Source of the DNA: Humidesulfovibrio sp.
GTDB taxonomy: Bacteria > Desulfobacterota > Desulfovibrionia > Desulfovibrionales > Desulfovibrionaceae
Direction: 5' to 3'
Length of the DNA stretch: 64,000 bases
Assembly (NCBI RefSeq): GCF_030689645.1
Contig: NZ_JAUYFU010000026.1
Location: 1 to 64,000, forward strand
The notes under the pieces were generated by a model. That model ran no database searches and had not been told where the DNA came from. It saw nothing but the letters and a program-made list of their open reading frames with translations. Below, piece by piece: positions 12,426 through 27,173 of this stretch. Each line of letters opens with the position of its first letter. Positions within the stretch are counted from its first letter, which is position 1. The position numbers were made by a program, and so were the translations under genes.

Positions 12426-13340
12426 CTACGGGTGCCCAAACTCCGCCTGAAGGCGGGCCAGCGCCTCCATCTCCCTATCATGATAGCGCTCCTTGTCTAT
12501 CAGCGTCGGCTGGCCGGTGGGCGGAACGTCGTGGTGCATGTACCGGTAGATGTCGAAATGTCCGCAGGTGTACCCGCGCACATGCACGTCCCGGAACCAT
12601 TGGCAGCCGACGTCCAGGATCTGCTTGCCGACGCTGAGAATGGCCCCGAAGGGCGTGACGCGCCCATGAGGCGCTGTGATGCCCCGAGCCTTCTGCATGT
12701 CGATGAGCGCGCACCACTCGTTGACCCGGCATTCCGGGAGCGGCCAGGGCTGCGTCTCAAACATCCTGTGCATGCGGGGCAGATGGTAGGCCCTCATGAG
12801 CGACCCCTCGGGGGCGCGGGTCTTCATATAGAGGTCGCGCAGCTCAGGGAAGGTGGGGCGATACTGCATGTAGGCTTCCGAACCGCACTTGCCCGTAAAG
12901 GACGCCGGGCAATACCAGCACTGACCGATGTGCCCAATGGCGATGTGCTCGCCCATGGCCTCCAGCATGGGGCCGATGACGTCCTGGCGAAAAACCGCGT
13001 CGTTGTGGATGATCAGAACGTGGTCCTTGTCGGTCTGCTCCCAACCGAACTGGTAACGAATGGCGTGGCGGCGCTCCGTATCTTCGAGTTCTCCAAGATC
13101 CAGGCCAAAGCAGTAGTTCCACTGCTTGGGCATCATGTAGACGATCTTGTCCTTCAGCCGCTCCCTGACGAACTCATGGTGCCCGCCCGCCATCTGGACG
13201 TTGCGGGTGTCCGTGTTCTCTTCAACAAAGTAAATTTTGTCGATGTGCTGTCCGCTCGCCCGGTCAAGGGAGAGCAAGGCCAGGGCAGTCTGGTGCACCT
13301 TGCCGCAAACGTTGATCAAAACATCAACCTTTCTGTCCAC
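12426..13340 (-). CDS. Hypothetical protein, possible glycosyltransferase of GT-A type
   Basis: Protein of 304 residues. It starts like a nucleotide-sugar-binding fold (KVDVLINVCGKVHQTALALLSL) and has an acidic motif in VLIIHNDAVFRQDVI near residue 115. This is the position where GT-A glycosyltransferases place their Asp-x-Asp metal site, although here the motif is NDA. Several Trp/Tyr/His-rich segments follow (QCWYCPASF, CGHFDIYRYMHH). There is no signal peptide or membrane segment. It is a single gene, divergent from a GH5 glucanase, so a role in glycan handling is plausible but inferred. A non-enzymatic sugar-binding protein is possible. Confidence 0.6.
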   Translation of the reverse strand: MDRKVDVLINVCGKVHQTALALLSLDRASGQHIDKIYFVEENTDTRNVQMAGGHHEFVRERLKDKIVYMMPKQWNYCFGLDLGELEDTERRHAIRYQFGWEQTDKDHVLIIHNDAVFRQDVIGPMLEAMGEHIAIGHIGQCWYCPASFTGKCGSEAYMQYRPTFPELRDLYMKTRAPEGSLMRAYHLPRMHRMFETQPWPLPECRVNEWCALIDMQKARGITAPHGRVTPFGAILSVGKQILDVGCQWFRDVHVRGYTCGHFDIYRYMHHDVPPTGQPTLIDKERYHDREMEALARLQAEFGHP

Positions 13341-13786
13341 TCTCTCACCAGCCTTGGCGTTGGGGCGCTTCCTGGTCCATCAGCATGCATACCTGACTGA
13401 ACATATACAAATTTTCACCACACTCAGATATCCGTGTCAAGAGAACGGCTGATTCTGGAATAGACAGGCGGCTGTCTCTTGCTCTTCACGCCCTCGATGA
13501 ACAGCTCCTTGACCGAGGAGAGCTCCGTCCGCCCACTTCGCCCTTCCTGTGCGGGCTGCCGGAGGCCTCTGACTCGCCCGTGACCGGGCCGATGGTCATT
13601 GCCGCGCTCCAACCCGCATTGCATGGGGTAGCCATGTTCCTCCGGGCCAAGCTGTTGCTGTTGCAATGGCTGTTAATCTTGAGGTAAAAGGAAATTGCAC
13701 ATGACTTGTCCTCCTGCGCAGGTCTTTACCCATCGACGGGACCTGCACGCTTTCGAAACCGCGCCGATGGACCAGCGAGGAACGCC
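13341..13786. other. Noncoding stretch between divergent genes
   Basis: About 445 bp separating the glycosyltransferase-like gene and the glucanase gene; promoters of both should lie here. A short hairpin is present at 13462-13477 (AGACAG/CTGTCT). On the minus strand, about 13440-13510 reads as a protein-like tail (LFIEGVKSKRQPPVYSRI) without a credible upstream part, perhaps a decayed gene end. Confidence 0.45.
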
Positions 13787-14908
13787 ATGCCCAATGCCCC
13801 TGCCCAATCACCCCACCCTGCCCACCTGCGCGGCGTGAACCTTGGCGGCTGGCTGCTGCTCGAAAAATGGATGACCCCAAGCCTGTTCGCAGGGCTTGAG
13901 GCCACGGATGAAACCACTTGGTGCGCCGAACTGGGCCATCAGGCCCCTGCGCGCCTGCGCGCCCACTGGGAAAGCTTCATCACGCGCGAGGACTTTGCCT
14001 GGCTTGCAGGCGTCGGCGTAAACTCCGTGCGCATCCCCGTCGGGCACTGGATCTTCGGACCGCCGTACCCCTACCACGCCAAATACGGCGCCAACCCGCA
14101 CCCCTTTGTGGAGGGCGGCCTCGACGTCCTCGACCGCGCGTTTAAGTGGGCGACGGAATTCGGCATTTGCGTCATCATCGACTTCCACGCCGCCCCTGGC
14201 TGCCAGAACGGCTTTGACAACGGCGGCATCAAGGACGTGGTTGAATGGCACACGCGGGAGGAATACATCGCGCATTCGGTCCTCGTGCTGGGTCGGCTGG
14301 CCGAACGCTATGGCGCCGAGCCCGCCCTGTACGGCATCGAGCTGCTCAACGAGCCGCGCTGGGACATCCCGACGGAGGTGCTCACGGCTTTCAACCTGCG
14401 CGCCTACGACGCCATCCGGGAGCACTGCCCGCCAGAACGCGTGGCCATCGTTTTCCACGACGGTTTCCGCTCGCACCGCGAATACCTTGGCTTCATGCAG
14501 CCGCCGCAGCACCAGAACGTCATATTCGACATCCACCGCTACCAGTGCTTCAGCCGCGAGGACCTCGACATGGACATCAACGGCCACATGCACAAGGCCG
14601 GGGTGCTATGGGCCGAGGAAGCCCGCGACATCCACCGCGAGCTGAAGCTGCCTGCCATAGTGGGAGAATGGAGCCTGGGGCTTAACCTGGAGGTGGTTTC
14701 TCTCTGGGCTGAGGGGCCCTACGACCATGCCCTGACCCATATGGACGATTTCCAGCGGGACGTGGCCTACCGGGCCTATGCCGCAGCGCAACTGCTTACG
14801 TACGAGCAGTATCGCGGCTGGTTCTTCTGGAGCTACCGCACCGAGACCACGCCGGAATGGTGCTTCCGCGAATGCGTGGAGAGAGGCTGGCTGCCGCCGC
14901 GCTTCTAG
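13787..14908 (+). CDS. GH5 glycoside hydrolase, exo-beta-1,3-glucanase-like
   Basis: Protein of 373 residues with a (beta/alpha)8 glycoside hydrolase family 5 layout. The N-terminal RGVNLGGWLLLEKWMTPSLF is the hallmark of exo-beta-1,3-glucanase-like GH5 members (yeast EXG1 type). The acid/base glutamate is in ELLNEPRWD near residue 187, and the nucleophile glutamate is in IVGEWSLG near residue 293. WFFWSYRTE near the C-terminus is the usual substrate Trp region. The start at 13787 follows GAGGAA; the upstream in-frame codons are unsupported. No signal peptide is seen, so the enzyme seems cytoplasmic, which is unusual for a polysaccharide hydrolase and may mean a small oligosaccharide substrate. 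Its stop shares CTAG with the convergent ABC gene. Confidence 0.88.
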   Translation: MPNAPAQSPHPAHLRGVNLGGWLLLEKWMTPSLFAGLEATDETTWCAELGHQAPARLRAHWESFITREDFAWLAGVGVNSVRIPVGHWIFGPPYPYHAKYGANPHPFVEGGLDVLDRAFKWATEFGICVIIDFHAAPGCQNGFDNGGIKDVVEWHTREEYIAHSVLVLGRLAERYGAEPALYGIELLNEPRWDIPTEVLTAFNLRAYDAIREHCPPERVAIVFHDGFRSHREYLGFMQPPQHQNVIFDIHRYQCFSREDLDMDINGHMHKAGVLWAEEARDIHRELKLPAIVGEWSLGLNLEVVSLWAEGPYDHALTHMDDFQRDVAYRAYAAAQLLTYEQYRGWFFWSYRTETTPEWCFRECVERGWLPPRF

Positions 14909-16710
14909 CGGTCGTTGCCGTTTCCGCGCCGCCGTTCGCCAAACAGGAGCTTGGTCTCGCTCAAACGGTTCAGGACCAGCGTGCGGTTGTGCAGTCTCTT
15001 GAGGCCTGGGTGAAAGCTGATGTTCAGGAGGGTCGCCTCTGGCAGCTCGCGGCCAAGCATCTCCAGAATCTGCCGTTCTCCCTCGGGATCAAAGGCGTCG
15101 GTGGCCTCCTCCAGGAAGACCCAGGCCGGCCGCTGGAGCAGGACACGCGCAAAACCCAGTTGCTGCTGAGCGCGTTGCGGCAGCGCCTGCTCCCAGTTGT
15201 CCCGCTCATCCAGTCGGGGGACAAGCCGGAGCAGCCCAACGCGTTCAAGGGCGCTGGTGATTTCTGCGGAAGAAAAGGCTGCCGCAGGACGCGGGTAGCT
15301 GATAGTTTCCCGCAGGGAGCCTTCCGGCAGAAGGGGCCGCTGGGCCAGGAACAACATGTCGCCCGCTCCGGGCAGCGAAACCCGCCCGCCGCCCCAGGGC
15401 CAAAGTCCGCCGAGAACCTTGAACAGGCTCCCGGTCACTGCCGGGTCCCCGGTTATCAGGACCCGTTCGCCGCTGTAGATGTCAACGCTGAACTTCTCGA
15501 TCAGGACACGGCCCGACGGCTCGGCGATGCAGAGGTCCTCGATCACCAGGCGGTCGCCGGACGTCCGCTCCAGAACAATGCTTGAGCATCCCGCCGTCTT
15601 GGCCCTGGCGTCCATCTGCTCCATGTCCTCGTAGAGCGACAGGACGCGTTCAGCCGAGGCGCGGCAACGCGCGATTTCACCGATGCTGTCCACCGGCCAG
15701 GAGAGGGAGGACGTGAGCTGCTGGAACGCTTGCGCGGACTGCATCAGCGCACCGAGGGTCATGGCCCCGTAGATGTACTGGGGGGCGGCGAGGAGGATAG
15801 GCAGCACCGGCAGCAGCGAGCCATACACTGTCCCGAATGAGACGAGGCCCAGGTACGCGAAGGATTGCTTTTGCCAGTCGCGCATGACCTGGCTGAAACG
15901 CACGGATGAGCCTTCGCGCTCCCGCGGTTCGCCCCGCATGAGCGCTATGGATTCCGAGTGCTCCCGCACCCGTGACAGGCCGAAACGAAAGGTGGCTTCT
16001 GCGGTCTGCAGGGCGTTGGTCGTCCGCACCAGCGGGCGGCCGACAACCCAGCCGAAGGCGCTGCCCAGGCCTGCATACAAAAAGGCCACCGGCACCATGT
16101 AGCCCGGCACGTTGACATTGAACCCCGGCACGTTGACAGAGCCCGACACCGTCCACAGGATGTTGACGAAAAGGCTGAAGATCAAAACGCTGAAGGTCAG
16201 CGAATGGGCAAGCCCGATGGCGCTTTCCGTGGCGATGCGGATGTCCTCGGCGATGCGTTGGTCAGGATTGTCATGTTCGCCAGGGGTGAAGAGCAGCCGG
16301 TAGTGGTGGGCGTCTTCCATCCATCTTCCCACCAACTGGTCGGTCAGCCAGGCGCGCCAGTCGATTTGCAGCCAGCGCTTGACCATGAGGTGCGAGGCTG
16401 TGACGACGAGGGAACACGCGATAATTCCGGCAAATATTGTAATCTGGATGACGACGCCGCGAACGGAGCGCTGCTCAAGGGCGTCATAAAGCGCCCTGTT
16501 CCAGTAATTCCCCACTACGGCGAGCCCGACCTGCGCCATGGTGAGCAGCAGCAGCAAAAGGGTCGCGCCCCGCACCTTGGCACGCCGCTCGCAATGCCAG
16601 TACGGGCCGGCAAGGCGAAGCACCTGCTGGAGAAAGCTTTTCCGGGTGCCGAGCGTACAGCTTGGAGAGGCGGTCGGTGCAGAGTTCGGAGTAGGGTCTG
16701 TCATTGCCAT
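14905..16710 (-). CDS. SbmA/ALD-type ABC transporter half with degenerate ATPase domain
   Basis: Protein of about 601 residues. The N-terminal half has the ABC_membrane_2 fold: an initial hydrophobic helix at LLLLLLTMAQVGLAVVGNYW, the conserved NPDQRIAEDI, then several more membrane helices. The C-terminal half is an ABC nucleotide-binding domain by position, but its key motifs are broken. Where relatives have a G-x-S-G-x-G-K-S Walker A followed by GLWPWG, this protein reads GDPAVTGSLFKVLGGLWPWG, lacking the lysine. The signature reads LPQRAQQQLGFAR, and Walker B has Glu in place of Asp (VFLEEATDAFD). ATP hydrolysis is therefore doubtful. The start is uncertain: ATG at 16710 or 16704, neither with a clear ribosome site. 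Confidence 0.8.
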   Translation of the reverse strand: MAMTDPTPNSAPTASPSCTLGTRKSFLQQVLRLAGPYWHCERRAKVRGATLLLLLLTMAQVGLAVVGNYWNRALYDALEQRSVRGVVIQITIFAGIIACSLVVTASHLMVKRWLQIDWRAWLTDQLVGRWMEDAHHYRLLFTPGEHDNPDQRIAEDIRIATESAIGLAHSLTFSVLIFSLFVNILWTVSGSVNVPGFNVNVPGYMVPVAFLYAGLGSAFGWVVGRPLVRTTNALQTAEATFRFGLSRVREHSESIALMRGEPREREGSSVRFSQVMRDWQKQSFAYLGLVSFGTVYGSLLPVLPILLAAPQYIYGAMTLGALMQSAQAFQQLTSSLSWPVDSIGEIARCRASAERVLSLYEDMEQMDARAKTAGCSSIVLERTSGDRLVIEDLCIAEPSGRVLIEKFSVDIYSGERVLITGDPAVTGSLFKVLGGLWPWGGGRVSLPGAGDMLFLAQRPLLPEGSLRETISYPRPAAAFSSAEITSALERVGLLRLVPRLDERDNWEQALPQRAQQQLGFARVLLQRPAWVFLEEATDAFDPEGERQILEMLGRELPEATLLNISFHPGLKRLHNRTLVLNRLSETKLLFGERRRGNGNDR

Positions 16711-17101
16711 ATGGGTTAAGGCTGCGGGCGGGGCTGACCCCTGATGAAAACGAACGAAATCAGCGCACAATGCGAGCTTCTTTCCACAGCATACCAGGGA
16801 ATTTGTCCAGACCACAAGCAAAAGCTATAGGCCATTCGGCTTGCTCATGAATTTTCTCCTCGCATTGTACTTGGTTGCGCCAACCAGGAGAACAAATCAG
16901 CCTTGAACGGCGCGGCAAATGCCAGAATTTCCAGCATTGGCCTATCTGCGGCCAGACTCGCTCCTGCGGCCAGCGCGACTGTTTCAACGCTCGGCGTCTG
17001 CGCAGCCCGCCGCCGCCCCGATCAAGCTCCATTGACAAACACCGCTAAGTATAATTTAGTATTTCTTCATCTTCCTAAATCCACACAACCATCAGGACAG
17101 G
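16711..17101. other. Noncoding stretch between divergent genes
   Basis: About 390 bp between the ABC gene and the coiled-coil/cyclase operon. The end near 17030-17100 is AT-rich and holds a candidate promoter. No supported ORF or RNA is seen elsewhere. Confidence 0.5.
17032..17062 (+). promoter_or_regulatory. Candidate sigma-70-type promoter for the cyclase operon
   Basis: A consensus TTGACA at 17032-17037 is followed by an AT-rich stretch. TATAAT occurs at 17050 but only 12 bp away, which is too close. TAGTAT at 17057-17062 (19 bp) or TTTAGT at 17055 (17 bp) would fit better as the -10 element. The first gene starts 40 bp downstream. Confidence 0.45.
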
Positions 17102-17557
17102 ATGAGCATGGCCCACAGACCTGCACCAGCCGATGAGCTGAGCGTCTTGCATGCCGAGAACCGCCACCTGAAGGACAGCATCGCGGCCATGCGCCAGGCC
17201 ATGGAGGCTCTGGTGCTCGACAAGAACGCAACGGTGCAGCAGGCCGTGGCCGCCTCCCGGGACGAACTCAAGAACATGCGCGAAACCATCGCGGCCCTGC
17301 GCGACGCCCTGGAGGCGCTGCATGGTGAGCGCGACCGCCAGGTTCAAGAAGCCGTGGCACGGGGCAAGGTCGAGAACAACGACTTGCAAGCCGCCATCCA
17401 GGCCATGCGCGAACAGCTAGAACTGGAGATGCTGGCCGAACGCGAACGCTTCAGCATTGCGCGCCGGGGCTACGAGGATGAGCTTGCTCAACTGCGCAAG
17501 ACCGTGGTGGCCCTGCGCGAAGCCCTTGAGGCAAAGGTCGTGGCCCATGCCAGGTAG
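17102..17557 (+). CDS. Coiled-coil protein with four exact 36-residue repeats
   Basis: Protein of 151 residues that is almost entirely predicted helix. Four repeats start at MRQAMEAL, LRDALEAL, MREQLELE and LREALEAK, each exactly 36 residues after the last. Each repeat is preceded by an LK/LQ-x-x-I-x-A-type segment and followed by an acidic-basic stretch with VQ-x-AVA. No membrane segment, signal peptide or enzymatic motif is seen. The C-terminus overlaps the start of the cyclase gene by 11 bp, so the two are translationally coupled and the protein may scaffold or cluster the cyclase. ATG codons at 17102 and 17108 are both possible; CAGGACAGG just upstream suits 17108. I do not recognise a family. 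Confidence 0.82.
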   Translation: MSMAHRPAPADELSVLHAENRHLKDSIAAMRQAMEALVLDKNATVQQAVAASRDELKNMRETIAALRDALEALHGERDRQVQEAVARGKVENNDLQAAIQAMREQLELEMLAERERFSIARRGYEDELAQLRKTVVALREALEAKVVAHAR

Positions 17558-19850
17558 CGCCAAGCCCCGGCCCAAAGCCGCACCGCGGCCCCTTGACGCG
17601 CCTTCAGCCGCAGCAAAGGCCCACCATCAAAGCAGGCCGGAGATGCTGCTTGAGGTGTCGCACCGCCTGGCCGGCCTGGACACCCTGGACGAGATGCTCC
17701 AGGCTATGATGGAGATGGTCTGCTGGGAACTGGGCGCCGAACGCGGCTCGCTGTTCCTGAACGACCCTGAAAACGGCGAGCTGTACTCCATCGTGGCGCA
17801 GGGGAACCAGCGCCGCCGCATCCGCATATTAAACACCTCCGGCGTGGCGGGCCGGGTGTTCACCACAGGCCGGGGCATGGTGGTGGCCGAGGCCTACAAG
17901 AACAAGCATTTCAACAAGGAAGTGGACCGCCAGACCGGCTATGTGACGCGCAACATCATCTGCGCGCCCATACGCACGGTCAAGGGCGAGCTCATCGGCG
18001 TGGCCCAGGTCCTGAACAAGAAGGACGGGGCCTTTTCGCGGGACGACCTCAAGCTGCTTGAGGCCATCGCCATGCAGGCGGCCATTGCGCTGTCCAGCGC
18101 CATATACATGGAGAAGATGCAGGTCTCCAGGGCGAAAGAGCTTGAGTTCCTGAACGTGGTGGCCGACGTGACCTCGGAGATTGAGCTGGGCACGCTTTTG
18201 CGCAAGGTCATGGGCGAGGCCACCAAGATGCTCTGCGCCGAGCGCTCCACCCTGTTTCTGAACGACGAGAAGACAAACGAGCTCTGGTCCATGGTGGGCG
18301 AAGGCATCGCCGCCACTCAAATCCGTTTTCCCAACCACCTGGGCATTGCGGGAGCCGTGTTCACCAGCGGCCGCTCGGTGAACATCCCCCACGCCTACGC
18401 CGACCTGCGCTTCAACCCGGCCTTTGACAAAAAGACGGGATTCTTCACGCGCTCCATCTTGTGCACCCCGGTGGTGACCAAAGAGGGCAAGGTCATCGGC
18501 GTGACCCAGGTTCTGAACCGGCACGGCGGCCCCTTCACCGCAGAGGACGAGTCCCGGCTCAAGGCCTTCACCGCGCAGATCTCCATCGCGCTGGAAAACG
18601 CCAAGCTCTTCAGCGATGTGCAGAGCATGCGCAATTACAACGAAAGCATGCTCCAGAGCATGAGCAACGGCGTCATCACCCTGGATGACGAGGGACGCAT
18701 CAAGACCTGCAACGCAGCCGGACTGCGCATTCTCTCGGCCAGCGGCCAGGAGCTCCTGGGCAGGCCCTTTGCAGAACTCTTCACCGGAGGCAACGCCTGG
18801 CTGGCGGACAAGGTGGCGGCGGTGGACGCCACCCAGGCGCCGGACATCGTCGTGGACGCGGAACTCAACTTCGGGAGCCAGAGCGTCTCGGTCAACGTCA
18901 CGGTGCTGCCGCTCTTGAGCGGAGAGCAGCAGAAGCTCGGAACCATGCTCATGGTGGAGGACATCTCCAGCGAAAAGCGCATGAAGTCCACCATGAGCAG
19001 GTACATGGACCCCAAGCTGGCCGATCAGCTCATGGCCGGGGGCGAGGACATCCTGGGCGGCAAGACGGTGGAGGCCACGGTGCTCTTCTCAGACATCCGA
19101 AGCTTCACCACCCTGACCGAGACCCTGGGCGCGCAAGGCACGGTGAGCTTTCTCAACGACTACTTCACCCTCATGATGGACTGCATCCAGGCCGAGGCCG
19201 GCATGCTCGACAAGTTCATCGGCGACGCAATCATGGCGGTGTTCGGCGTGCCCCTGTCCCACGAAGACGACGAGGACAGGGCCCTGCGCTGCGCCATCGC
19301 CATGATACGCGCCCTGCAAGGCTTCAACGCTCAGCGGGCCGCTGCGGGCAGCAAGCCCATAGACATCGGCATCGGCCTGAACACGGCCCAGGTGGTCTCG
19401 GGCAACATCGGCTCGCCCAAGCGCATGGACTACACCATCATCGGCGACGGGGTGAACCTGGCTGCGCGGCTGGAGTCGGCCTGCAAGCAGTACAGCGCGC
19501 GCATCCTCATCAGCGAGTTCACCCAGGCCCGGCTTAAGGGCATCTACCGCCTCCGCGACGTGGACGACGTGGTGGTCAAGGGCAAGACCGAACCCGTGCG
19601 GATTTTTGAGGTGCTGGATTACCACACCGACGAGAGCTTCCCCAACCTCATGGAGGCCACGGGACACTTCCAGGAGGGCCGCAAATCCTACCGCGCCGGA
19701 AATTTCGCCAAGGCTTGCCGCTCCTTTGCCGAGAGCCTGCGTCTGAACCCGGCTGACAAGCTCTCCGCCACCTACGTCGAACGCTGCGAAACCCTGTCCA
19801 CCGCCGATCCAAAGGATTGGAACGGGGTGTGGACCATGACCAGCAAATAG
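17547..19850 (+). CDS. Class III adenylate/guanylate cyclase with two GAF domains and a PAS domain
   Basis: Cytoplasmic protein of 767 residues. Two GAF domains (about residues 30-190 and 205-350) are followed by a PAS domain (from SMRNYNESMLQSMSNG, about 365-475), a class III cyclase domain (about 505-690) and a C-terminal TPR-like helix pair (FQEGRKSYRAGNFAKACRSF). Catalytic metal aspartates are in LFSDIRSFT and DKFIGDAIMAVFG. The lysine of DKFIGD and the YTIIGDGVNLAARLES motif fit adenylate rather than guanylate specificity, though this is not proof. The start at 17547 lies inside the coiled-coil gene end and is preceded by AAAGG. GAF domains suggest control by a small ligand, possibly a cyclic nucleotide. 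PilZ, HDOD and MBL-fold genes follow. Confidence 0.93.
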   Translation: MPGSAKPRPKAAPRPLDAPSAAAKAHHQSRPEMLLEVSHRLAGLDTLDEMLQAMMEMVCWELGAERGSLFLNDPENGELYSIVAQGNQRRRIRILNTSGVAGRVFTTGRGMVVAEAYKNKHFNKEVDRQTGYVTRNIICAPIRTVKGELIGVAQVLNKKDGAFSRDDLKLLEAIAMQAAIALSSAIYMEKMQVSRAKELEFLNVVADVTSEIELGTLLRKVMGEATKMLCAERSTLFLNDEKTNELWSMVGEGIAATQIRFPNHLGIAGAVFTSGRSVNIPHAYADLRFNPAFDKKTGFFTRSILCTPVVTKEGKVIGVTQVLNRHGGPFTAEDESRLKAFTAQISIALENAKLFSDVQSMRNYNESMLQSMSNGVITLDDEGRIKTCNAAGLRILSASGQELLGRPFAELFTGGNAWLADKVAAVDATQAPDIVVDAELNFGSQSVSVNVTVLPLLSGEQQKLGTMLMVEDISSEKRMKSTMSRYMDPKLADQLMAGGEDILGGKTVEATVLFSDIRSFTTLTETLGAQGTVSFLNDYFTLMMDCIQAEAGMLDKFIGDAIMAVFGVPLSHEDDEDRALRCAIAMIRALQGFNAQRAAAGSKPIDIGIGLNTAQVVSGNIGSPKRMDYTIIGDGVNLAARLESACKQYSARILISEFTQARLKGIYRLRDVDDVVVKGKTEPVRIFEVLDYHTDESFPNLMEATGHFQEGRKSYRAGNFAKACRSFAESLRLNPADKLSATYVERCETLSTADPKDWNGVWTMTSK

Positions 19851-19862
19851 CATGGAGCGCAC

Positions 19863-20189
19863 GTGACGGCACACTGCACAGCCACCCCTCCCGCCCCAGG
19901 CGGCCCCGACAACCGGAGCCACGCCCGGCGCGCTGTGCGCATCACCGGACGCCTGTTCAGTGATGGCGTCTGGCAGGATTGCGAGGTCATCAACGTCTCC
20001 GCAGGCGGGGCGAAGCTGCACGTGGTCAGCGCCTGCCGCCCGGGACAGGAGCTGCGCCTGGAGATCGAACTCTGCGGCCAGCTCCCCGGAGTTGCCGCCT
20101 GGGTGCGTGGAGACGAACTGGGCATCAAATTCACTGGCGACCCCGCCGAAACCGCCGCAGCCCTCATCGGCCTTGCAACCTACGGCTAA
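19863..20189 (+). CDS. PilZ domain protein
   Basis: Single-domain protein of 108 residues, started by GTG 12 bp after the cyclase stop. It has the PilZ features: an Arg-rich N-terminal motif (HARRAVRI, in the place of RxxxR), then NVSAGGAKLHV (the D/N-x-S-x-x-G motif) and a terminal beta strand (LGIKF). PilZ domains bind cyclic di-GMP and pass the signal to pili, flagella or polysaccharide machinery. The arginine motif is RRAVR rather than a strict R-x-x-x-R with preceding Gln, but two usable arginines remain. Lying in one operon with a nucleotide cyclase, it may read a second messenger. Confidence 0.82.
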   Translation: MTAHCTATPPAPGGPDNRSHARRAVRITGRLFSDGVWQDCEVINVSAGGAKLHVVSACRPGQELRLEIELCGQLPGVAAWVRGDELGIKFTGDPAETAAALIGLATYG

Positions 20190-20317
20190 GGCCATGACTC
20201 CGTTGCGACGCGAACGCGAGCCAATGGGCAAAGCCATTGAATTTCCGCGTCTCCCTTGATATCAGCCGCCGGTGGCCAGCCGCCGATGAGCATCCAATAC
20301 CAGGAAACAGGAGCACC

Positions 20318-21169
20318 ATGACGCACAGGCCAAGCATCGACGCCACCCTCGCGCTGGTGGACAACATCCCCGCTTTCTCAAAAAGCGTCACCCGCGTGCT
20401 TCATCTGGCGTCGGACCTGAACTGCAGCGCCCGCGACCTGCTGGAGGTCGTCTCCACAGACCCCGTGCTCACCATGAAGGTTCTGCGCCTGGTGAATTCC
20501 GCCTATTTTGGCCGTTCGCAAAAGGTCACCTCGGTCCATCAGGCAATGGTGACGCTGGGCCTGAACACTCTGAAAAATGTCGCGCTCTCCCTGGCCATGC
20601 TCGGCGCCCTGCCAAAGAAAAGCAGCTCCGGCTTCGACATCGACGCGCTCTGGGAGCACAGCCTGGCCGTGGGCCTGGCCGCCCGGCGGCTGGCCCGGCA
20701 GCAGAACCTGAGCCGCACCGAGGCCGAGGACTGCTTTGTGGCCGGCCTGCTGCACGATGTGGGCAAGCTGGTCCTGGCCCAGTTCCGACCGCAGGAGTTC
20801 GCCGATGCCCTGGACGAAGCCCGGCAGCAGGGCCGTCCGCTCCACGAGGCCGAGCGCGCCAGCATCGGCGTCGACCACGCGGAACTCGGCGCAGCCCTGG
20901 CCCGGCGCTGGGAACTGCCGCCCGCCCTGGTCAATGCGCTGGCCGGACACCATGACCCGGAAGCCGCGCCCGCGCCCATGACCGATGTGATCTTCGCCGC
21001 GAACCAGGTGGCGAAGCGGTTGACTCTCGGAGACTCCGGCGACATGCAAACCCTGCCCTTCCCGAGCGGCCTGGCGGAGCGCCTGGGCCTGGACGCCGGG
21101 GCCGCCACAGCGCTCATGCCCGACCTTGGCGATGAGCTGGAACGTTCGCGCATCCTCCTGAAACTCTAG
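20318..21169 (+). CDS. HDOD domain signalling protein
   Basis: Protein of 283 residues. The HDOD domain spans about residues 10-205 (NIPAFSKSVTRVLHLASD, then STDPVLTMKVLRLVNSAYFG, the usual helix pattern). It carries an intact HD-like metal motif GLLHDVGKLVLAQF near residue 145. HDOD proteins are phosphodiesterase-like but often act as signalling adaptors. The start at 20318 follows ACAGGAG; the upstream in-frame codons are rejected. It belongs to the cyclase operon, 128 bp after the PilZ gene and 19 bp before the MBL-fold gene. Confidence 0.88.
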   Translation: MTHRPSIDATLALVDNIPAFSKSVTRVLHLASDLNCSARDLLEVVSTDPVLTMKVLRLVNSAYFGRSQKVTSVHQAMVTLGLNTLKNVALSLAMLGALPKKSSSGFDIDALWEHSLAVGLAARRLARQQNLSRTEAEDCFVAGLLHDVGKLVLAQFRPQEFADALDEARQQGRPLHEAERASIGVDHAELGAALARRWELPPALVNALAGHHDPEAAPAPMTDVIFAANQVAKRLTLGDSGDMQTLPFPSGLAERLGLDAGAATALMPDLGDELERSRILLKL

Positions 21170-21188
21170 CTAAAGGACAGGTTTCACC

Positions 21189-22070
21189 ATGCGGCTCGTC
21201 TTCTGGGGAACCCGCGGCTCCATCGCAGCGCCCGGCCCCGACACTGTTGTGTTCGGCGGCAACACCACCTGCCTTGAAATCGACACGGGCAGCGGGGAGC
21301 GCATCATTCTGGACGCAGGCACCGGCATCCGGGCCTTGGGCCTGAAGCTTGCGCAACACATGCCCCTGCGCTGCTCCATCTTCATCACCCACACCCACTG
21401 GGACCACATCCAGGGCCTTCCCTTCTTCGTGCCGCTCTTCGTGCCGGGAAACAGCATCGACATCCACGGCCCCTTTGATCCTGTGGGCCTGAAGGACATC
21501 CAGGACGTGCTCTCCGGCCAGATGGCCTATCCCTACTTTCCGGTCAGCAGCGCGGAGCTCAAGGCCAACATCGCCTACAAGACCCTCTCCGAGGGCCAGA
21601 GCGTGCAGATCGGCGAGGCAGAGGTCACTGGGCTGCTCATGAACCATCCGGTTATCTCCCTTGGCTACAAGGTTTCCTGCGGGGGCAAGAGCATCTTCTT
21701 CACCGGCGATCACGAGGACTACGGCAACATCTATGCCCCCGGCGACCAGTTCTATGACGAATACGAGGAGATCATCGCGGAGCGCCGCGCCCGGCAGGCG
21801 GATTTCCTGCGCGGGGTGGACGTGCTGGTGAGCGACTGCATGTATGCCGACGACGAGCTGCGCCTGAAGGCTGGCTGGGGCCACTCCAGCCCGACCACCT
21901 GCGCCCGCCTGGCGCGTAGCGCAGGAATTCCACGACTCGTCCTGACGCATTTCGATCCCACCAGAAATGACGAGGCGCTGCGGCTCTTTGAACGCGCCGC
22001 GCGCGAGGCGCACCAGGGGCCGGACCTGTCCATCGAACTGGCCAGAGAAGGAATGGTCATAGATCTCTAG
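21189..22070 (+). CDS. Metallo-beta-lactamase-fold hydrolase
   Basis: Protein of 293 residues with the MBL metal motif THTHWDHIQG near residue 70. Further ligands are in MNHPVISLGY, FFTGDHEDYG and LVLTHFDPTRND. The N-terminus (RLVFWGTRGSIAAPGPDT, then FGGNTTCLEI) resembles the PhnP/RNase Z-like subgroup (COG1235 type), whose members cleave phosphodiesters including cyclic ones. It lacks a signal peptide and so should be cytoplasmic. Being the last gene of a cyclase-PilZ-HDOD operon, it could be the phosphodiesterase that removes the cyclase product. That is inference only. Confidence 0.85.
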   Translation: MRLVFWGTRGSIAAPGPDTVVFGGNTTCLEIDTGSGERIILDAGTGIRALGLKLAQHMPLRCSIFITHTHWDHIQGLPFFVPLFVPGNSIDIHGPFDPVGLKDIQDVLSGQMAYPYFPVSSAELKANIAYKTLSEGQSVQIGEAEVTGLLMNHPVISLGYKVSCGGKSIFFTGDHEDYGNIYAPGDQFYDEYEEIIAERRARQADFLRGVDVLVSDCMYADDELRLKAGWGHSSPTTCARLARSAGIPRLVLTHFDPTRNDEALRLFERAAREAHQGPDLSIELAREGMVIDL

Positions 22071-22177
22071 CAACAGCCGCTGTCGGACCCCGCTCCCCGA
22101 AAACTTGCAAGAGGCACTGAAGAACCAAAAGCACGCTCTGTTCCAAACCGCAACGACGACTGCTTTGCCTTTCTCTA

Positions 22178-22194
22178 ATCCATGATTTATGGAT
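22178..22194. promoter_or_regulatory. Inverted repeat, putative binding site of the NtrC-type regulator (site 1)
   Basis: ATCCAT-GATTT-ATGGAT, a perfect 6-bp-arm repeat with five-base spacer, 25 bp ahead of the regulator start codon. It has the same geometry as three repeats in the tad control region, suggesting autoregulation. Confidence 0.65.
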
Positions 22195-22219
22195 GAAGAA
22201 AACGATTGAGGAGCGCGCA

Positions 22220-23611
22220 ATGGGACACACCAGCGGCAAGATCCTGCTCATTGAGGACAACGAGGCCTTCCGGGACATGCTCCGGGAAAGCCTGCAGGAG
22301 TTCGGGCATGAGGTCGCCGTTGTCCGCACCGCCGAGCAGGGCATCGAACTGGTACAATCCGGAGGGTTCGACCTGGTCATCACCGATGTTCGCCTTCCCG
22401 GGATGTCGGGAGTTGACGCCCTGCACATGCTCCGAGAGGCAGCCCCCAGCACGGAGGTCATCGTCATGACCGCGTTCTCGGATCATGACACCGCCTTGGA
22501 CGCCATCCGGCAGGGCGCATATGACTTCTTCTCCAAGCCCTTTCGCCTTGAGGAAATGCAGACCGTGGTCAACCGGGCTTTGGAGAAGCACAGCCTCAAG
22601 CAGGAGATAGGCATCCTGCGCGAAGCCCTGTCCTCCAACCGGACCGGCCGCCAGGCCATTGGTCAAAGCCCGGCGATGCAGGCCGTGCACTCCTTTGTCA
22701 AACGGGTCGCCCCGCTGGACACCTCGGTGCTCATCCTAGGCGAATCCGGCACGGGCAAGGAGGTTGTCGCGGACCTTATTCATGAAGCCAGCAGGCGGGC
22801 AGGCGGTCCTTTCATCAAGCTGAACTGCGCGGGCATCCCGGAAAACCTGCTTGAAAGCGAGCTGTTCGGACACGAGAAAGGCGCGTTCACCGGAGCCATC
22901 CATTCAAAGCCAGGGCGCTTTGAACTGGCCCAGGGAGGCACGCTGCTCCTGGACGAGATCGGCGACATGCCCTTGACCCTGCAGCCCAAACTCTTGAGGG
23001 CGGTTGAGCAGAAGCAGGCGGAACGCATCGGTGGCACAAAACCGGTGCAATATGATGTCCGCATCGTGGCCGCAACCAATGCCGACCTTGCGCGGCGCGT
23101 CGCAGACAAGTCTTTCCGCGAGGATCTGTACTACCGCCTCAATGTGGCCACCATCCACCTGCCGCCCCTGCGTGAACGGAAAGAGGACATCGCCCTCCTG
23201 GCGGCGCATTTTCTCCAGGCATTCAACCAGCGGACCGGCGCGAGCATACCGCCCCTGGGCCAGGCCTCCGTGGACCGTCTCAATGCATACAATTGGCCGG
23301 GCAACGTGCGGCAATTGGCCAATGTGGTGGAGCGCGCCGCAATCTTCAGCCGCTCTGGGATCATCACCGCAGCCGATGTGGAACTCGCCATCTCCGATGG
23401 AGCCCAGCCGGCCCCGGCAGGCGAAAGCGGCAGCCCCCTGCCCCTGCGCCAGACCCTCCAGGATGTGGAGCGCAGCCTCATCGTCTCCGCCCTGCGCCGC
23501 ACGGGCGGCATCCAAACCTTGGCGGCCAAGGCCCTGGGCATCACGCCCACCAATCTCTGGAACAAGATCCAGAAGCATGGCATCACCGCCGATGAGAGTC
23601 TCCCCAACTAG
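22220..23611 (+). CDS. NtrC-family sigma-54-dependent response regulator, probable tad pilus activator
   Basis: Protein of 463 residues with receiver, AAA+ and Fis-type DNA-binding domains. The receiver has the acidic pair in LLIEDNEAF, phosphoacceptor Asp in ITDVRLPGMSG and Lys in FSKPF. The AAA+ domain has Walker A GESGTGKE, the sigma-54 contact loop GAFTGA, Walker B LLLDEIGDM and the arginine-finger region FREDLYYRL. The C-terminal helix-turn-helix is GGIQTLAAKALGITPTNLWNKI. The start at 22220 follows GAGGAG. The tad promoter 350 bp downstream of its stop is a sigma-54 consensus with three repeats like the one ahead of this gene, so it very likely activates the pilus operon. The hybrid kinase at the far end of the locus is its likely partner. 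Confidence 0.94.
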   Translation: MGHTSGKILLIEDNEAFRDMLRESLQEFGHEVAVVRTAEQGIELVQSGGFDLVITDVRLPGMSGVDALHMLREAAPSTEVIVMTAFSDHDTALDAIRQGAYDFFSKPFRLEEMQTVVNRALEKHSLKQEIGILREALSSNRTGRQAIGQSPAMQAVHSFVKRVAPLDTSVLILGESGTGKEVVADLIHEASRRAGGPFIKLNCAGIPENLLESELFGHEKGAFTGAIHSKPGRFELAQGGTLLLDEIGDMPLTLQPKLLRAVEQKQAERIGGTKPVQYDVRIVAATNADLARRVADKSFREDLYYRLNVATIHLPPLRERKEDIALLAAHFLQAFNQRTGASIPPLGQASVDRLNAYNWPGNVRQLANVVERAAIFSRSGIITAADVELAISDGAQPAPAGESGSPLPLRQTLQDVERSLIVSALRRTGGIQTLAAKALGITPTNLWNKIQKHGITADESLPN

Positions 23612-24360: not shown

Positions 24361-24909
24361 ATGAATCCGATAATCTTCACCACCGTGTGCCTTGCCCTGG
24401 CCGCAGCAACCTGCATCGACCTCCGTTCCCAGCGCATTCCCAACGCGCTGACAATCCCCACCGCCCTCGCCGCCCTGGCGTTCCACGCGCTGAACCAGGG
24501 ACCCGCTGGTTTCTGGTTCAGCGCGGGGGGACTGGGCCTCGGATTCGGGCTCATGCTCGCCCCCTTTCTTTTCGGGGTCATGGGTGGCGGCGACCTGAAG
24601 CTTATGGCTGCCGTTGGCGCCTGGCTCGGGCCGCAGGCCGTCTTCACCGCATTTCTGGCAACGAGCATCGCAGGCGGGCTTTATGCCCTCGCAGTGCTCG
24701 CGCAACGACGAGATGTCCTGCGCAGCGTCTTTCTGCGCTTCACCAGCGCGCTGTACGCAACTGCAGGCACGGGCGAATTTCATTACAGACCCGCCCCCGG
24801 GGCCGAGACGCTCCCCAGGCTGTGCTACGGCCTGGCCATTTCCTTGGGAACCCTGGCCGTCATGATCCACCGCGTGCTTGAACACGGCTGGCTCGGCCAG
24901 GCCTGGTGA
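24361..24909 (+). CDS. tadV: Prepilin peptidase TadV/CpaA (A24 family)
   Basis: Membrane aspartyl protease of 182 residues that cleaves Flp prepilin and the TadE/F pseudopilins. The two catalytic aspartates are in CIDLRSQRIPN (near residue 20) and MGGGDLKLMAAVG (near residue 79), both in the A24 family context. Several hydrophobic helices surround them. Like other Tad peptidases it lacks the N-terminal methylase domain of PilD. It carries a longer C-terminal section than the minimal 150-residue forms. Its stop lies 10 bp before cpaB. Confidence 0.92.
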   Translation: MNPIIFTTVCLALAAATCIDLRSQRIPNALTIPTALAALAFHALNQGPAGFWFSAGGLGLGFGLMLAPFLFGVMGGGDLKLMAAVGAWLGPQAVFTAFLATSIAGGLYALAVLAQRRDVLRSVFLRFTSALYATAGTGEFHYRPAPGAETLPRLCYGLAISLGTLAVMIHRVLEHGWLGQAW

Positions 24910-24919
24910 GGGGGACCAC

Positions 24920-25729
24920 ATGAACACGTCACTGAAGTCCACTGCCCAACTCGGCCTGGCCCTGGTTCTGGCTCTTTCAGCCGGAATCCTGGTGTACCAA
25001 TGGCTTCGGACCGCCGCATCCCCAGGGCAGGCCCAGGTGCAGCAGACCGCACAACTGGTGGTGGCCGCGCGCAACATCCCCGCAGGAACGCGGCTTGAGC
25101 CTGCCATGCTTCGGACCGTGGACTATCCCGCCAGCCTGCTGCCGGAGCAGCGATACGCCTCTGCGCAGGAACTGGCTGGCCGCATGCTGGCCACCGGCGT
25201 CAGCGCCAACGAACCCATCACCCCGTCCAGGCTCACCGGCGAGGCCGGAGCAGGCGGCATCAGCGCGGTCATCACCCCCGGCAAGCGGGCCATGGCGGTC
25301 CGCGGCAACAAGGTCATGGGCCTTGCCGGATTCATCCGCCCAGGCAACATGGTGGATGTTCTGGTGACGCTGGCCCTGGACGAGAACTCCAAGCGGAACA
25401 CGACCAAGGTGGTGCTGGAGAACATTCCCGTGTTGGCGACCGGCACCCAGATGACCACGGACAAGGAAGAATCACCTTCACAGGTGGACATTTACACCCT
25501 GGAACTGACCCCGGAGGAGAGCGAAAAGCTTGCTCTGGCATCGACCCAGGGAACGCTGCACTTCGCGCTGCGCAACGCTTCGGACACGGAGATCGTGCTC
25601 ACCGACGGGGCTGACGCCAAGTCAGCCATGGCGTCGTACCGAACACGACGCGTGGCCCAGGCCCCTGGCGGCACAGGCATCACCGTGGAGCTCATCAACG
25701 GCGCACAGCGCACTAAGGTAAGCTTCTAG
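24920..25729 (+). CDS. cpaB: Tad pilus assembly protein CpaB/RcpC
   Basis: Protein of 269 residues with an N-terminal membrane anchor (LGLALVLALSAGILVYQWL), a SAF-type domain (VVAARNIPAGTRLEPAMLRTVDYPA) and the CpaB core (MAVRGNKVMGLAGFIRPGNMVDVLVTL). It acts in the periplasm beside the secretin. The start at 24920 follows GAGGGGGA; the longer in-frame ORF would overlap tadV. Confidence 0.92.
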   Translation: MNTSLKSTAQLGLALVLALSAGILVYQWLRTAASPGQAQVQQTAQLVVAARNIPAGTRLEPAMLRTVDYPASLLPEQRYASAQELAGRMLATGVSANEPITPSRLTGEAGAGGISAVITPGKRAMAVRGNKVMGLAGFIRPGNMVDVLVTLALDENSKRNTTKVVLENIPVLATGTQMTTDKEESPSQVDIYTLELTPEESEKLALASTQGTLHFALRNASDTEIVLTDGADAKSAMASYRTRRVAQAPGGTGITVELINGAQRTKVSF

Positions 25730-25745
25730 AAAGGCAGGTCGCATC

Positions 25746-27173
25746 ATGAACGCCACGTCGAGCATTCTCGCAGCAGCACTCATATCCCTGGTTCTTGCGG
25801 GCCAGGCTCTGGCGCAGCCGCCTCCCCAGGCGCAGGCCGCCAAGGTCAACATAAGCCAGACCAATCCGCCCCTGGAGCTCACGGTCGGCAAGTCCATCGT
25901 TCTGACCAGCGACCAGGACATCCGCCGGATCTCCCTGGCCTCGCCCGATTCCGTCGATGTGCTCCTGCTCTCCCAGCGCCAAGTGTACCTGACTGGCAAG
26001 GCTCCCGGCGCAACGAACCTGACCCTCTGGGGGCCGGGCGACGCAGTCATGGCCGTGTACGACCTGAATGTCACGCCCGACCAGTCGCAGCTCAAGAACA
26101 TGATCTTCACCGTGCTGCCCAACGAGCGCGGCATCCGCGTATCCAGCAGCGGCCGCAACATCATCCTTTCGGGCCATGTGTCCAGCGCCACCCGCATGGC
26201 GGCGGCAGTCTCCCTCGCCGAAACCGTGACCCCGGGCAAGGTGCAGAACCTCATGAGCGTCGGCGGCGTGCAGCAGGTCATGCTCGAGGTTCGCATCGCC
26301 GAGATGAGCCGCACGGTGCTCCAGCGCTTCGGCATCAATTTCAACCTCATGACCGGCGGCAACGCCGTCCAGTCCATGCTCGGCGGGCTCACCAAGCTCT
26401 CCGGCGGCGTCATGACCCCCACGGACAACATCGGGGCCATCGTCACGCCCAACCTCGGCAGCTCCGCATCGCTCACAGCCTTCATCGACGCCCTGAAGGC
26501 CAACGGACTGGTCAAGGTGCTGGCCGAGCCGAATCTCATCTGCCTTTCCGGAAAGTCGGCCAGCTTCCTGGCCGGCGGCGAAATCCCCATCCCCATCCCC
26601 CAGGGCCTGGGCACCGTGGCCATCGAGTACAAGCCCTTCGGCGTGGGCCTCAACTTCACGCCCATCGTGCTTGATTCGGGCCGCATCAGCATCCAGGTGA
26701 ACCCCGAGGTCTCAGAGCTGGACAGCTCCCTCGGCGTCACCATCAACAGCTGGCAAATCCCCGGCCTGACCACCCGCCGGGTAAGCACCACCATCGAACT
26801 GGGGAACGGCCAGAGCTTCGCCATCGCCGGGCTCATCAAGGACACCTCCCGCGAGTCCATCAACAAGTACCCCGGCCTGGGCGACCTGCCGGTTCTCGGA
26901 GCGCTGTTCCGCAGCAGCGAGTACCGCAAGAACGAGACCGAACTGGTGATCATCGTCACCCCGCACCTGGTGAAGCCCCTGGACATGGCCCAGCAGACGC
27001 TGCCCACGGACGGGTTCCGCGAGCCCACCCCCTCCGAGTTTTTCGGCAAGGGCGAGATGGAAGGCAAGGCCGACGCAGGGCAAAAGCCCAGCCAGCGGCC
27101 CGCGCCCAGCAAGAACGACACGTCTTCCCGCACCGGCGGCAGCGCTGAAACAGCCGCGCCGCAGGCTCAGTAG
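25746..27173 (+). CDS. cpaC: Tad outer-membrane secretin CpaC/RcpA
   Basis: Secretin of 475 residues forming the outer-membrane channel. A signal peptide (ILAAALISLVLAGQALAQ) is followed by the pilus-secretin N domain (ELTVGKSIVLTSDQDIRRISLASPDSVDV), a BON-like segment and the secretin core. The core motif VKVLAEPNLICLSGKSASFLAGGEIPIP and the terminal GDLPVLGALFRS...ETELVIIVTPHLV are typical. The C-terminal tail after residue 430 is low-complexity and polar. It follows cpaB by 16 bp. Confidence 0.95.
   Translation: MNATSSILAAALISLVLAGQALAQPPPQAQAAKVNISQTNPPLELTVGKSIVLTSDQDIRRISLASPDSVDVLLLSQRQVYLTGKAPGATNLTLWGPGDAVMAVYDLNVTPDQSQLKNMIFTVLPNERGIRVSSSGRNIILSGHVSSATRMAAAVSLAETVTPGKVQNLMSVGGVQQVMLEVRIAEMSRTVLQRFGINFNLMTGGNAVQSMLGGLTKLSGGVMTPTDNIGAIVTPNLGSSASLTAFIDALKANGLVKVLAEPNLICLSGKSASFLAGGEIPIPIPQGLGTVAIEYKPFGVGLNFTPIVLDSGRISIQVNPEVSELDSSLGVTINSWQIPGLTTRRVSTTIELGNGQSFAIAGLIKDTSRESINKYPGLGDLPVLGALFRSSEYRKNETELVIIVTPHLVKPLDMAQQTLPTDGFREPTPSEFFGKGEMEGKADAGQKPSQRPAPSKNDTSSRTGGSAETAAPQAQ

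Follow-up and report, generated by a model that had tools for sequence, protein, structure and literature searches.

An exact 36-residue-repeat protein encoded directly upstream of GAF-GAF-PAS class III nucleotide cyclases: a candidate partner of the enzyme

Coiled-coil elements tied to cyclases and separate proteins that act on class III cyclases have both been described. The S-helix (Anantharaman, Balaji and Aravind 2006, PMC1592074) is a heptad coiled coil of about 40 residues with an ERT signature in its central heptad, and it nearly always has a domain of the same chain on either side. The activation of CyaB in Pseudomonas aeruginosa is dependent on FimV and FimL, and FimV is a large membrane LysM/TPR protein that is not encoded with the cyclase. 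Cyclases of the Anabaena CyaB1/CyaB2 type carry tandem GAF, PAS and cyclase domains in a single chain, and coiled coils of non-heptad periodicity (hendecad 11/3, 18/5 and similar) are also described. The locus compared here with these systems encodes a protein of tandem 36-residue units (the rod, P0001) directly upstream of a cyclase. The exact units, the hydrophobic residues on one face with an acidic face opposite, the change of copy number by whole units and the linkage of the two genes are all shown by the sequences. The favoured explanation, held with moderate confidence, is that the rod is a straight, self-associating coiled coil that serves as a dedicated partner, either scaffold or regulatory subunit, of the downstream cyclase; the binding, the oligomer state and the effect on cAMP are inferred. 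The window is the whole 64,000-nucleotide stretch of Humidesulfovibrio sp. DNA that was analysed, and its relevant features are the following:

17102–17557, forward strand: 36-residue-repeat coiled-coil protein (rod, P0001), 151 aa (open reading frame, translation, repeat test, orthologues)
17153–17260, forward strand: rod repeat unit 1, residues 18–53, in profile phase (profile scan and register)
17261–17368, forward strand: rod repeat unit 2, residues 54–89 (profile scan and register)
17369–17476, forward strand: rod repeat unit 3, residues 90–125 (register between units 2 and 4, spacing 72; repeat test)
17477–17554, forward strand: rod repeat unit 4, residues 126–151, the first 26 residues of a unit (profile scan)
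17547–19850, forward strand: GAF-GAF-PAS-class III nucleotide cyclase, 767 aa (Pfam, orthologues, alignment)
17547–17642, forward strand: cyclase N-terminal low-complexity tail, net charge +4, predicted disordered (charge; model pLDDT)
17685–18092, forward strand: GAF domain 1, residues 47–182 (Pfam PF01590)
18186–18593, forward strand: GAF domain 2 (two GAF stretches in Pfam; position by alignment to locus L055)
18642–18980, forward strand: PAS domain (Pfam PF08448/PF00989)
19071–19592, forward strand: class III cyclase catalytic domain (Pfam PF00211; best solved relative P. aeruginosa CyaB, 3r5g)

The motifs MRQAMEAL, LRDALEAL, MREQLELE and LREALEAK start at rod residues 30, 66, 102 and 138, exactly 36 residues apart. 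When P0001 was compared with itself at lags of 3–99 residues (BLOSUM62, weighted by compared residues), the highest self-similarity was found at lag 36, followed by lag 72, and the lag-36 value was matched by 0/2000 full shuffles and by 0/2000 shuffles preserving the hydrophobic pattern. Unit 3 was the most divergent, falling below the 9-bit cut yet remaining in register. The DNA of the first three units is only 41–56% alike from one unit to another, so the repeat is old and has been maintained at the protein level. The rod stop codon (17555–17557) and the cyclase ATG (17547) overlap by 11 bp. The rod frame is a real gene, as shown by its conservation in orthologues without internal indels and by an excess of changes at third codon positions; in a single example, the comparison with locus L011, the differences at codon positions 1, 2 and 3 numbered 24, 20 and 45, respectively. 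The P0001 monomer was modelled by AlphaFold2 as a single continuous helix over residues 9–150 (mean pLDDT 93.1), although a long helix of high pLDDT is expected of nearly any such sequence and a monomer run does not address the oligomer state.

The unit consensus derived from 287 units of the first 68 loci was D-E-I-x-Q-L-K-x-T-x-x-A-L-R-D-E-L-E-x-L-R-F-E-K-E-x-A-V-Q-E-A-V-A-A-S-x, with R14 conserved in 98%, L6 in 94%, E2 in 92% and L13 in 91% of them. The hydrophobic columns were positions 3, 6, 10, 13, 17 and 20, then 28 and 31/32, and the most conserved residues (E2, L6, L13, R14, L17 and E18) lie within or next to this core stripe. Over 142 distinct rod proteins, the number used in all averages, the hydrophobic period was 3.60 (5–95% range 3.59–3.60), and the power at period 3.50 was 6% of the 3.60 peak, so that neither P0001 nor these 142 proteins pass the period-3.5 test of an ordinary heptad coiled coil. 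A period of 36/10, equal to 18/5 or 3.6, entails little or no supercoil. With 100 degrees allotted to each residue, the hydrophobic stripe faces 264 degrees and the acidic residues, on the opposite side, 97 degrees; net charge was negative in 139/142 rods. Off the stripe, at 40 degrees, is position 22, which is hydrophobic in 57% of units and by our geometric reading would form an outward knob once per unit. The original prediction of four exact 36-residue repeats and of an 11 bp overlap with the cyclase start was upheld by the repeat starts, the lag test and the shuffles and by the coordinates, respectively. Its claim that one surface recurs along one face also held, in that, at 100 degrees per residue, the hydrophobic residues gather on a single side, with no experimental data on either helix or oligomer state. 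The proposed division into two heptads and two hendecads held only in part; ten turns in 36 residues are confirmed, and the columns read more readily as three heptads plus a 15-residue stretch, either layout summing to the same length.

Spacings between detected units were counted over all 147 profile-positive loci (143 distinct genomes, second copies included), and the 544 spacings were found to be 36 (539), 72 (4) or 108 (1) residues and no other. Homologues of different periodicity, which would have refuted the original prediction, were thus not encountered, with all 544 spacings in register and the period at 3.60. In the lag test the top lag was 36 in 134/140 rods and 72 in the other 6, two of the 142 proteins being too short. 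Copy number counted by register was 2 (6 proteins), 3 (16), 4 (42), 5 (42), 6 (25), 7 (4), 8 (5), 9 (1) and 10 (1). These numbers are lower bounds; five of the six two-unit rods lie at contig ends (L138, L174, L175, L176 and L179) and a third unit is visible by eye in the sixth (L119), while the L055 rod shows five units by threshold and six by eye. The longest rod-type open frame among the profile matches listed has 484 residues (L230; G408:C133, contig positions 12856–14211) and lies near a contig end, the cyclase of that genome beginning another contig. Closely related loci differ by whole units: the cyclases of L072, L073 and L074 are 97, 89 and 84% identical to the L055 cyclase, and their rods have 6, 7 and 8 units, respectively. 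Pairs of units reach 94% likeness in DNA (≥90% in 2 and ≥80% in 36 of 894 compared pairs), and turnover by recombination seems to be ongoing. Whole-unit changes are also expected from recombination between 108-bp repeats, so that exact spacing alone need not imply selection for a ruler. Constraint is better argued from the lack of small indels among the 544 spacings, though without another coiled-coil family of similar divergence as a baseline.

These data bear on a first rival, which sees in the rod a structural element, either forming filaments or bound to a pole or the membrane, that brings the cyclase to a place in the cell, the number of units setting the properties of the filament and the contact perhaps being made by one end only. 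In its favour are the variation in unit number, from 2 to 10 detected at the same gene position, and the precedent of Pseudomonas polar hub proteins, which act on cyclases, as FimV does with CyaB; a polar hub and a diguanylate cyclase are treated in PMC7033161. Against it, between-protein identity over the first 19 residues rose from 0.46 in the last unit to 0.465 in the penultimate and 0.52–0.525 in the two before, and was 0.49 in the first detected. The last unit, considered as a specially conserved contact end, was therefore rejected, a like-for-like comparison placing it lowest; one fixed contact end is disfavoured, and this rival was judged less likely than before. Furthermore, a comparison of 16 loci, spanning up to 16 kb each and 21 kb in the window, showed three other gene families recurring, each in 4 loci, and no further gene was kept with the pair in more than 4/16. 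The recruiting filament is accordingly regarded as unlikely.

The surroundings of the pair were also inspected. In the window, a glycosyl hydrolase family 5 (cellulase-like) gene (13706–14908, forward strand) and an ABC transporter gene with ABC_membrane_2 and SbmA/BacA matches (14905–16821, reverse strand, divergent to the rod gene) lie upstream. Downstream of the cyclase are PilZ, HDOD, metallo-beta-lactamase-fold and sigma-54 response-regulator genes (19863–23611, forward strand), which recur in fewer than 4 of the 16 loci, followed by Flp/Tad-type pilus genes for a type IV leader peptidase, RcpC/CpaB and secretin (24361–27173, forward strand). In L011, L012, L013 and L014 the ABC transporter is replaced upstream by a gene with the motif NDTHSNLEPVDTG, which we take to be 5'-nucleotidase-like. 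A gene with the motif HxDCDAFxASVEK, taken to be DNA polymerase IV-like, stands beside the pair in some alphaproteobacterial loci, namely four of the 16 compared (L231, L232, L233 and L234) and L055.

Within Desulfovibrionaceae the rod was matched at E 1e-3 in 9/288 genomes. One of these matches (G245; E 8e-4, 34% identity over 67 residues) was rejected as a coiled coil matching by chance, with none of the rod motifs searched present in its 10 kb locus (L019), which leaves eight genomes; the rod profile at 1e-6 likewise matched 8/348 genomes of the order. A close cyclase (81–100% identical) was present in the identical 8/288 family genomes, with the rod gene directly upstream in 8/8 and a 4-bp overlap in five, and at genus level rod and cyclase occurred in the same 6/15 genomes. 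Six full orthologues and one truncated by a contig end align to units 1–4 of the window rod without an internal gap. Close rods in named records belong to Humidesulfovibrio and another Desulfovibrionaceae MAG, the rest being labelled only as delta- or proteobacteria. The rod gene of G011 spans a contig break, and it was judged from homology searches and locus reading and left out of the profile scan. Ten other family genomes carry a sister cyclase of 51–55% identity, and the profile scan found no unit upstream in 10/10.

Beyond the family, a contig search of named genomes with P0001 alone gave no match, and the same search with the rod profile gave ten loci. Three of these are distant, from MAGs labelled Rhodospirillales, Rhizobiaceae group and Betaproteobacteria, and in each a rod of 36-residue units, 5 or 6 of them when counted by eye against 4 in the window, immediately precedes a GAF-GAF-PAS-cyclase. 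In the alignment all three rods extend further at the C-terminus, and that of L055 also has one insert of 36 columns. Relatives of the three distant genomes were then searched with the cyclase alone at E 1e-250, with 97/200, 44/299 and 4/201 genomes positive, so that lineages outside Desulfovibrionaceae entered through a rod match and the genomes inside them were chosen by cyclase alone. The 1e-250 cut was our own choice, and partner-less cyclases of intermediate similarity could be hidden by it. A search of plasmids with the cyclase at 1e-100 gave no match.

In the first 68 loci the top upstream lag was 36 in 68/68, the frame being the one that scored highest at lag 36. These loci served to train a 36-position profile, which was then applied to 152 loci, namely the same 68, a further 77 that had no part in the training and 7 from the close family. 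At least two units were found in 147, four had too little sequence and one (L196) was sub-threshold, with three anchors exactly 36 apart (z 4.4) in a separate open reading frame; L105, without a unit in the first 68-locus profile step, where another frame had probably been picked, was positive in the full scan. Removal of four second copies (L068, L069 and one each of L070/L131 and L071/L101) left 148 genomes, G351 and G352 being inferred from equal contig numbers and coordinates to be G008 and G019. Subtraction of those with short upstream sequence (L140, L161, L162 and L177) left 144, seven of them from Desulfovibrionaceae, and 143 of the 144 had at least two units by profile. Four genomes whose cyclase lacks its 5' end at a contig end were excluded (G353, G367, G370 and G623). 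A fused rod-cyclase was considered; the scan counted separate open reading frames only and was positive in 147/148 loci with enough upstream sequence, the remaining one (L196) also having a separate frame. The rod gene is therefore present upstream of every cyclase of the clade with readable upstream sequence. The original prediction had proposed a profile search with the 36-residue unit and had counted a gene not kept beside cyclases as its refutation; the search was run, with units upstream in 147/152 loci, and that refutation did not occur.

Co-occurrence was determined in 200 relatives of G348, of which 94 had both genes, 3 the cyclase only, 8 the rod only and 95 neither (102 rod profile matches). 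In the three cyclase-only genomes the cyclase is cut at a contig end; in six of the eight rod-only genomes a downstream cyclase runs off the contig, and in the other two the rod lies at a contig edge. This leaves no clear case of either gene alone in this set. A six-frame scan of 386,392 residues returned 12 segments with units, each of which was the rod gene. A quick tree of 81 cyclases separated the 72 rod-partnered enzymes from nine of the ten rod-less ones by a fully supported branch.

Cyclase starts lay within 60 nt of the rod stop in 132/141 loci and overlapped it in 81/141, with the nearest in-frame start taken, and, independently of start choice, the first conserved motif of the cyclase lay a median of 113 nt beyond the rod stop. 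The frames thus overlap or touch in most loci by the start rule used, as would be expected under a second rival, in which the rod makes no contact with the cyclase and its frame merely couples or sets the translation of the enzyme. Sixteen rods of different lineages nevertheless align over about 130 columns at 32–61% identity to the first row without internal gaps, and an arginine is 98% conserved in each unit; a leader peptide would need neither, and this rival is considered very unlikely.

The cyclase has tandem GAF, PAS_4/PAS and Guanylate_cyc domains in the order of the CyaB1/CyaB2 type, all exceeding the Pfam cut-offs. Its motifs LDKFIGD and RMDYTIIG align with IDKFVGD and RMDYTIIG of P. 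aeruginosa CyaB (3r5g), and K556 and T630, which we take to be the ATP-specific purine-binding Lys and Thr of class IIIb, are invariant in nine aligned rows. This match at the ATP-selecting residues suggests that the product is probably cAMP, an inference from sequence alone. The NKFDE motif, which we take to be the nucleotide-binding GAF motif and which was read in an alignment to PDE5, is incomplete: GAF2 has N, F and D with Pro replacing K, GAF1 is without N and K, and E was not placed. The AlphaFold2 model of the cyclase was poor (mean pLDDT 65.3) and was used only for the tail, with a pLDDT of about 32 over residues 1–20 and below 50 over 1–28, and for the tandem-GAF match.

Tail charge was positive in 121/142 rod-partnered cyclases, against −4 to +1 in sister tails (n = 10). 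The remaining 21 were not positive, one of them without a start candidate, and tail and start were picked by a rule favouring starts close to the rod stop; the charge argument for a contact between rod and tail is therefore weak. The ten sister cyclases (L038–L047) have instead a conserved helical-looking N-terminal region of about 50 residues (HRLxQxDIRxxL...), differing from that of the partnered clade, and it is possible that this region is a built-in counterpart of the separate rod. This feature, together with the one-to-one linkage, the closely spaced frames and the interface-like location of the most conserved unit residues in or beside the core stripe, supports a third rival, in which the rod is an allosteric subunit whose helix, packed on the signalling helices of the cyclase dimer, keeps the enzyme switched on or off, the repeat number being nearly neutral. 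An allosteric subunit would have no need for 4 to 10 equivalent units or for exact 36-residue spacing over the full length; it remains a possibility.

Under the favoured explanation of a dedicated scaffold or regulatory partner, the rod would dimerise or form a higher oligomer through its conserved stripe. It would bind near the N-terminus of the cyclase, contacting the tail, which is mostly basic and predicted to be disordered, and the helix that precedes GAF1; in the rod-less sisters a helical N-terminal region stands in place of these two elements. The combination of an acidic rod with a mostly basic tail, where the sisters look helical, makes the N-terminus the likely contact, by inference and without binding data. 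The rod would thereby determine at what site, at what density or in what state the cyclase produces cAMP. As the same face returns every 36 residues (about 5.4 nm), added units would supply more equivalent sites and not a new surface. A bolder reading, regarded as unlikely and not excluded, is that the rod is a molecular ruler with one identical docking face per ten-turn unit, on which cyclase dimers would be lined up about 5.4 nm apart and the size of the cAMP array tuned by the bacteria in whole units.

An unannotated and genetically linked partner means that assays of the cyclase alone may miss half of the machine, which changes how a widespread class of cyclases should be studied. The rod is also a clean natural case of a fixed non-heptad unit that varies in number and not in length, making selection on coiled-coil phase directly testable and offering a ready-made straight helical ruler for design.

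With regard to described families, P0001 reached no Pfam cut-off (25 of 34 matching families viewed). The rods of L057 and L056 passed Ax_dynein_light by 2.6 bits and Mis12 by 1.2 bits, respectively, both eukaryotic coiled-coil models that were barely exceeded, and the L055 rod passed none. Generic coiled-coil families (best DUF6779, Ax_dynein_light and Mis12) were rejected, as none was above cut-off in more than one of four rods; no NCBIfam family was found for the rods tested, and solved structural relatives by sequence were also rejected (best E 0.17). The claim that no named family has this design thus held, no Pfam or NCBIfam family being consistent across rods. To our knowledge no tandem family in which a unit fixed at 36 residues varies in copy number has been named, and none was found in the open-access literature searched. 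No description of a rod-cyclase pair was found there either (titles and abstract starts; open-licence papers only). The gcyB/gcyC hypothetical proteins of the Rhodospirillum centenum guanylyl cyclase cluster (PMC4681086) were considered; the relevant sections describe no repeat rod, and, with no sequence compared, they are not excluded.

Among the known systems, the cyclase resembles Anabaena CyaB1/CyaB2 in its domains; CyaB2 (1ykd) was closest to the tandem GAF part of the poor model, and the GAFs of 1ykd, PDE5 and PDE2 match by sequence. It differs in its incomplete NKFDE motif and in the rod, no such partner being mentioned for CyaB1/CyaB2 in the relevant sections of PMC4411481. CyaB under FimV and FimL is likewise a class III cyclase under a separate hub or scaffold protein, but unlike FimV the rod is encoded with its cyclase (no sequence comparison was made). 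The S-helix is similarly a coiled-coil element tied to cyclases and other signalling enzymes, whereas the rod is a protein in its own right, its 36-residue units being non-heptad and lacking ERT. It fails the S-helix heptad test (about 5 heptads) by the period and power given above, and ERT is absent from the unit consensus DEIxQLKxTxxALRDELE, the rod being a separate open reading frame in the 147 profile-positive loci. The rod shares the geometric idea of the non-heptad coiled coils, and the rod-cyclase pair is best placed as an undescribed variant of a non-heptad coiled coil and cyclase partner, outside the S-helix family.
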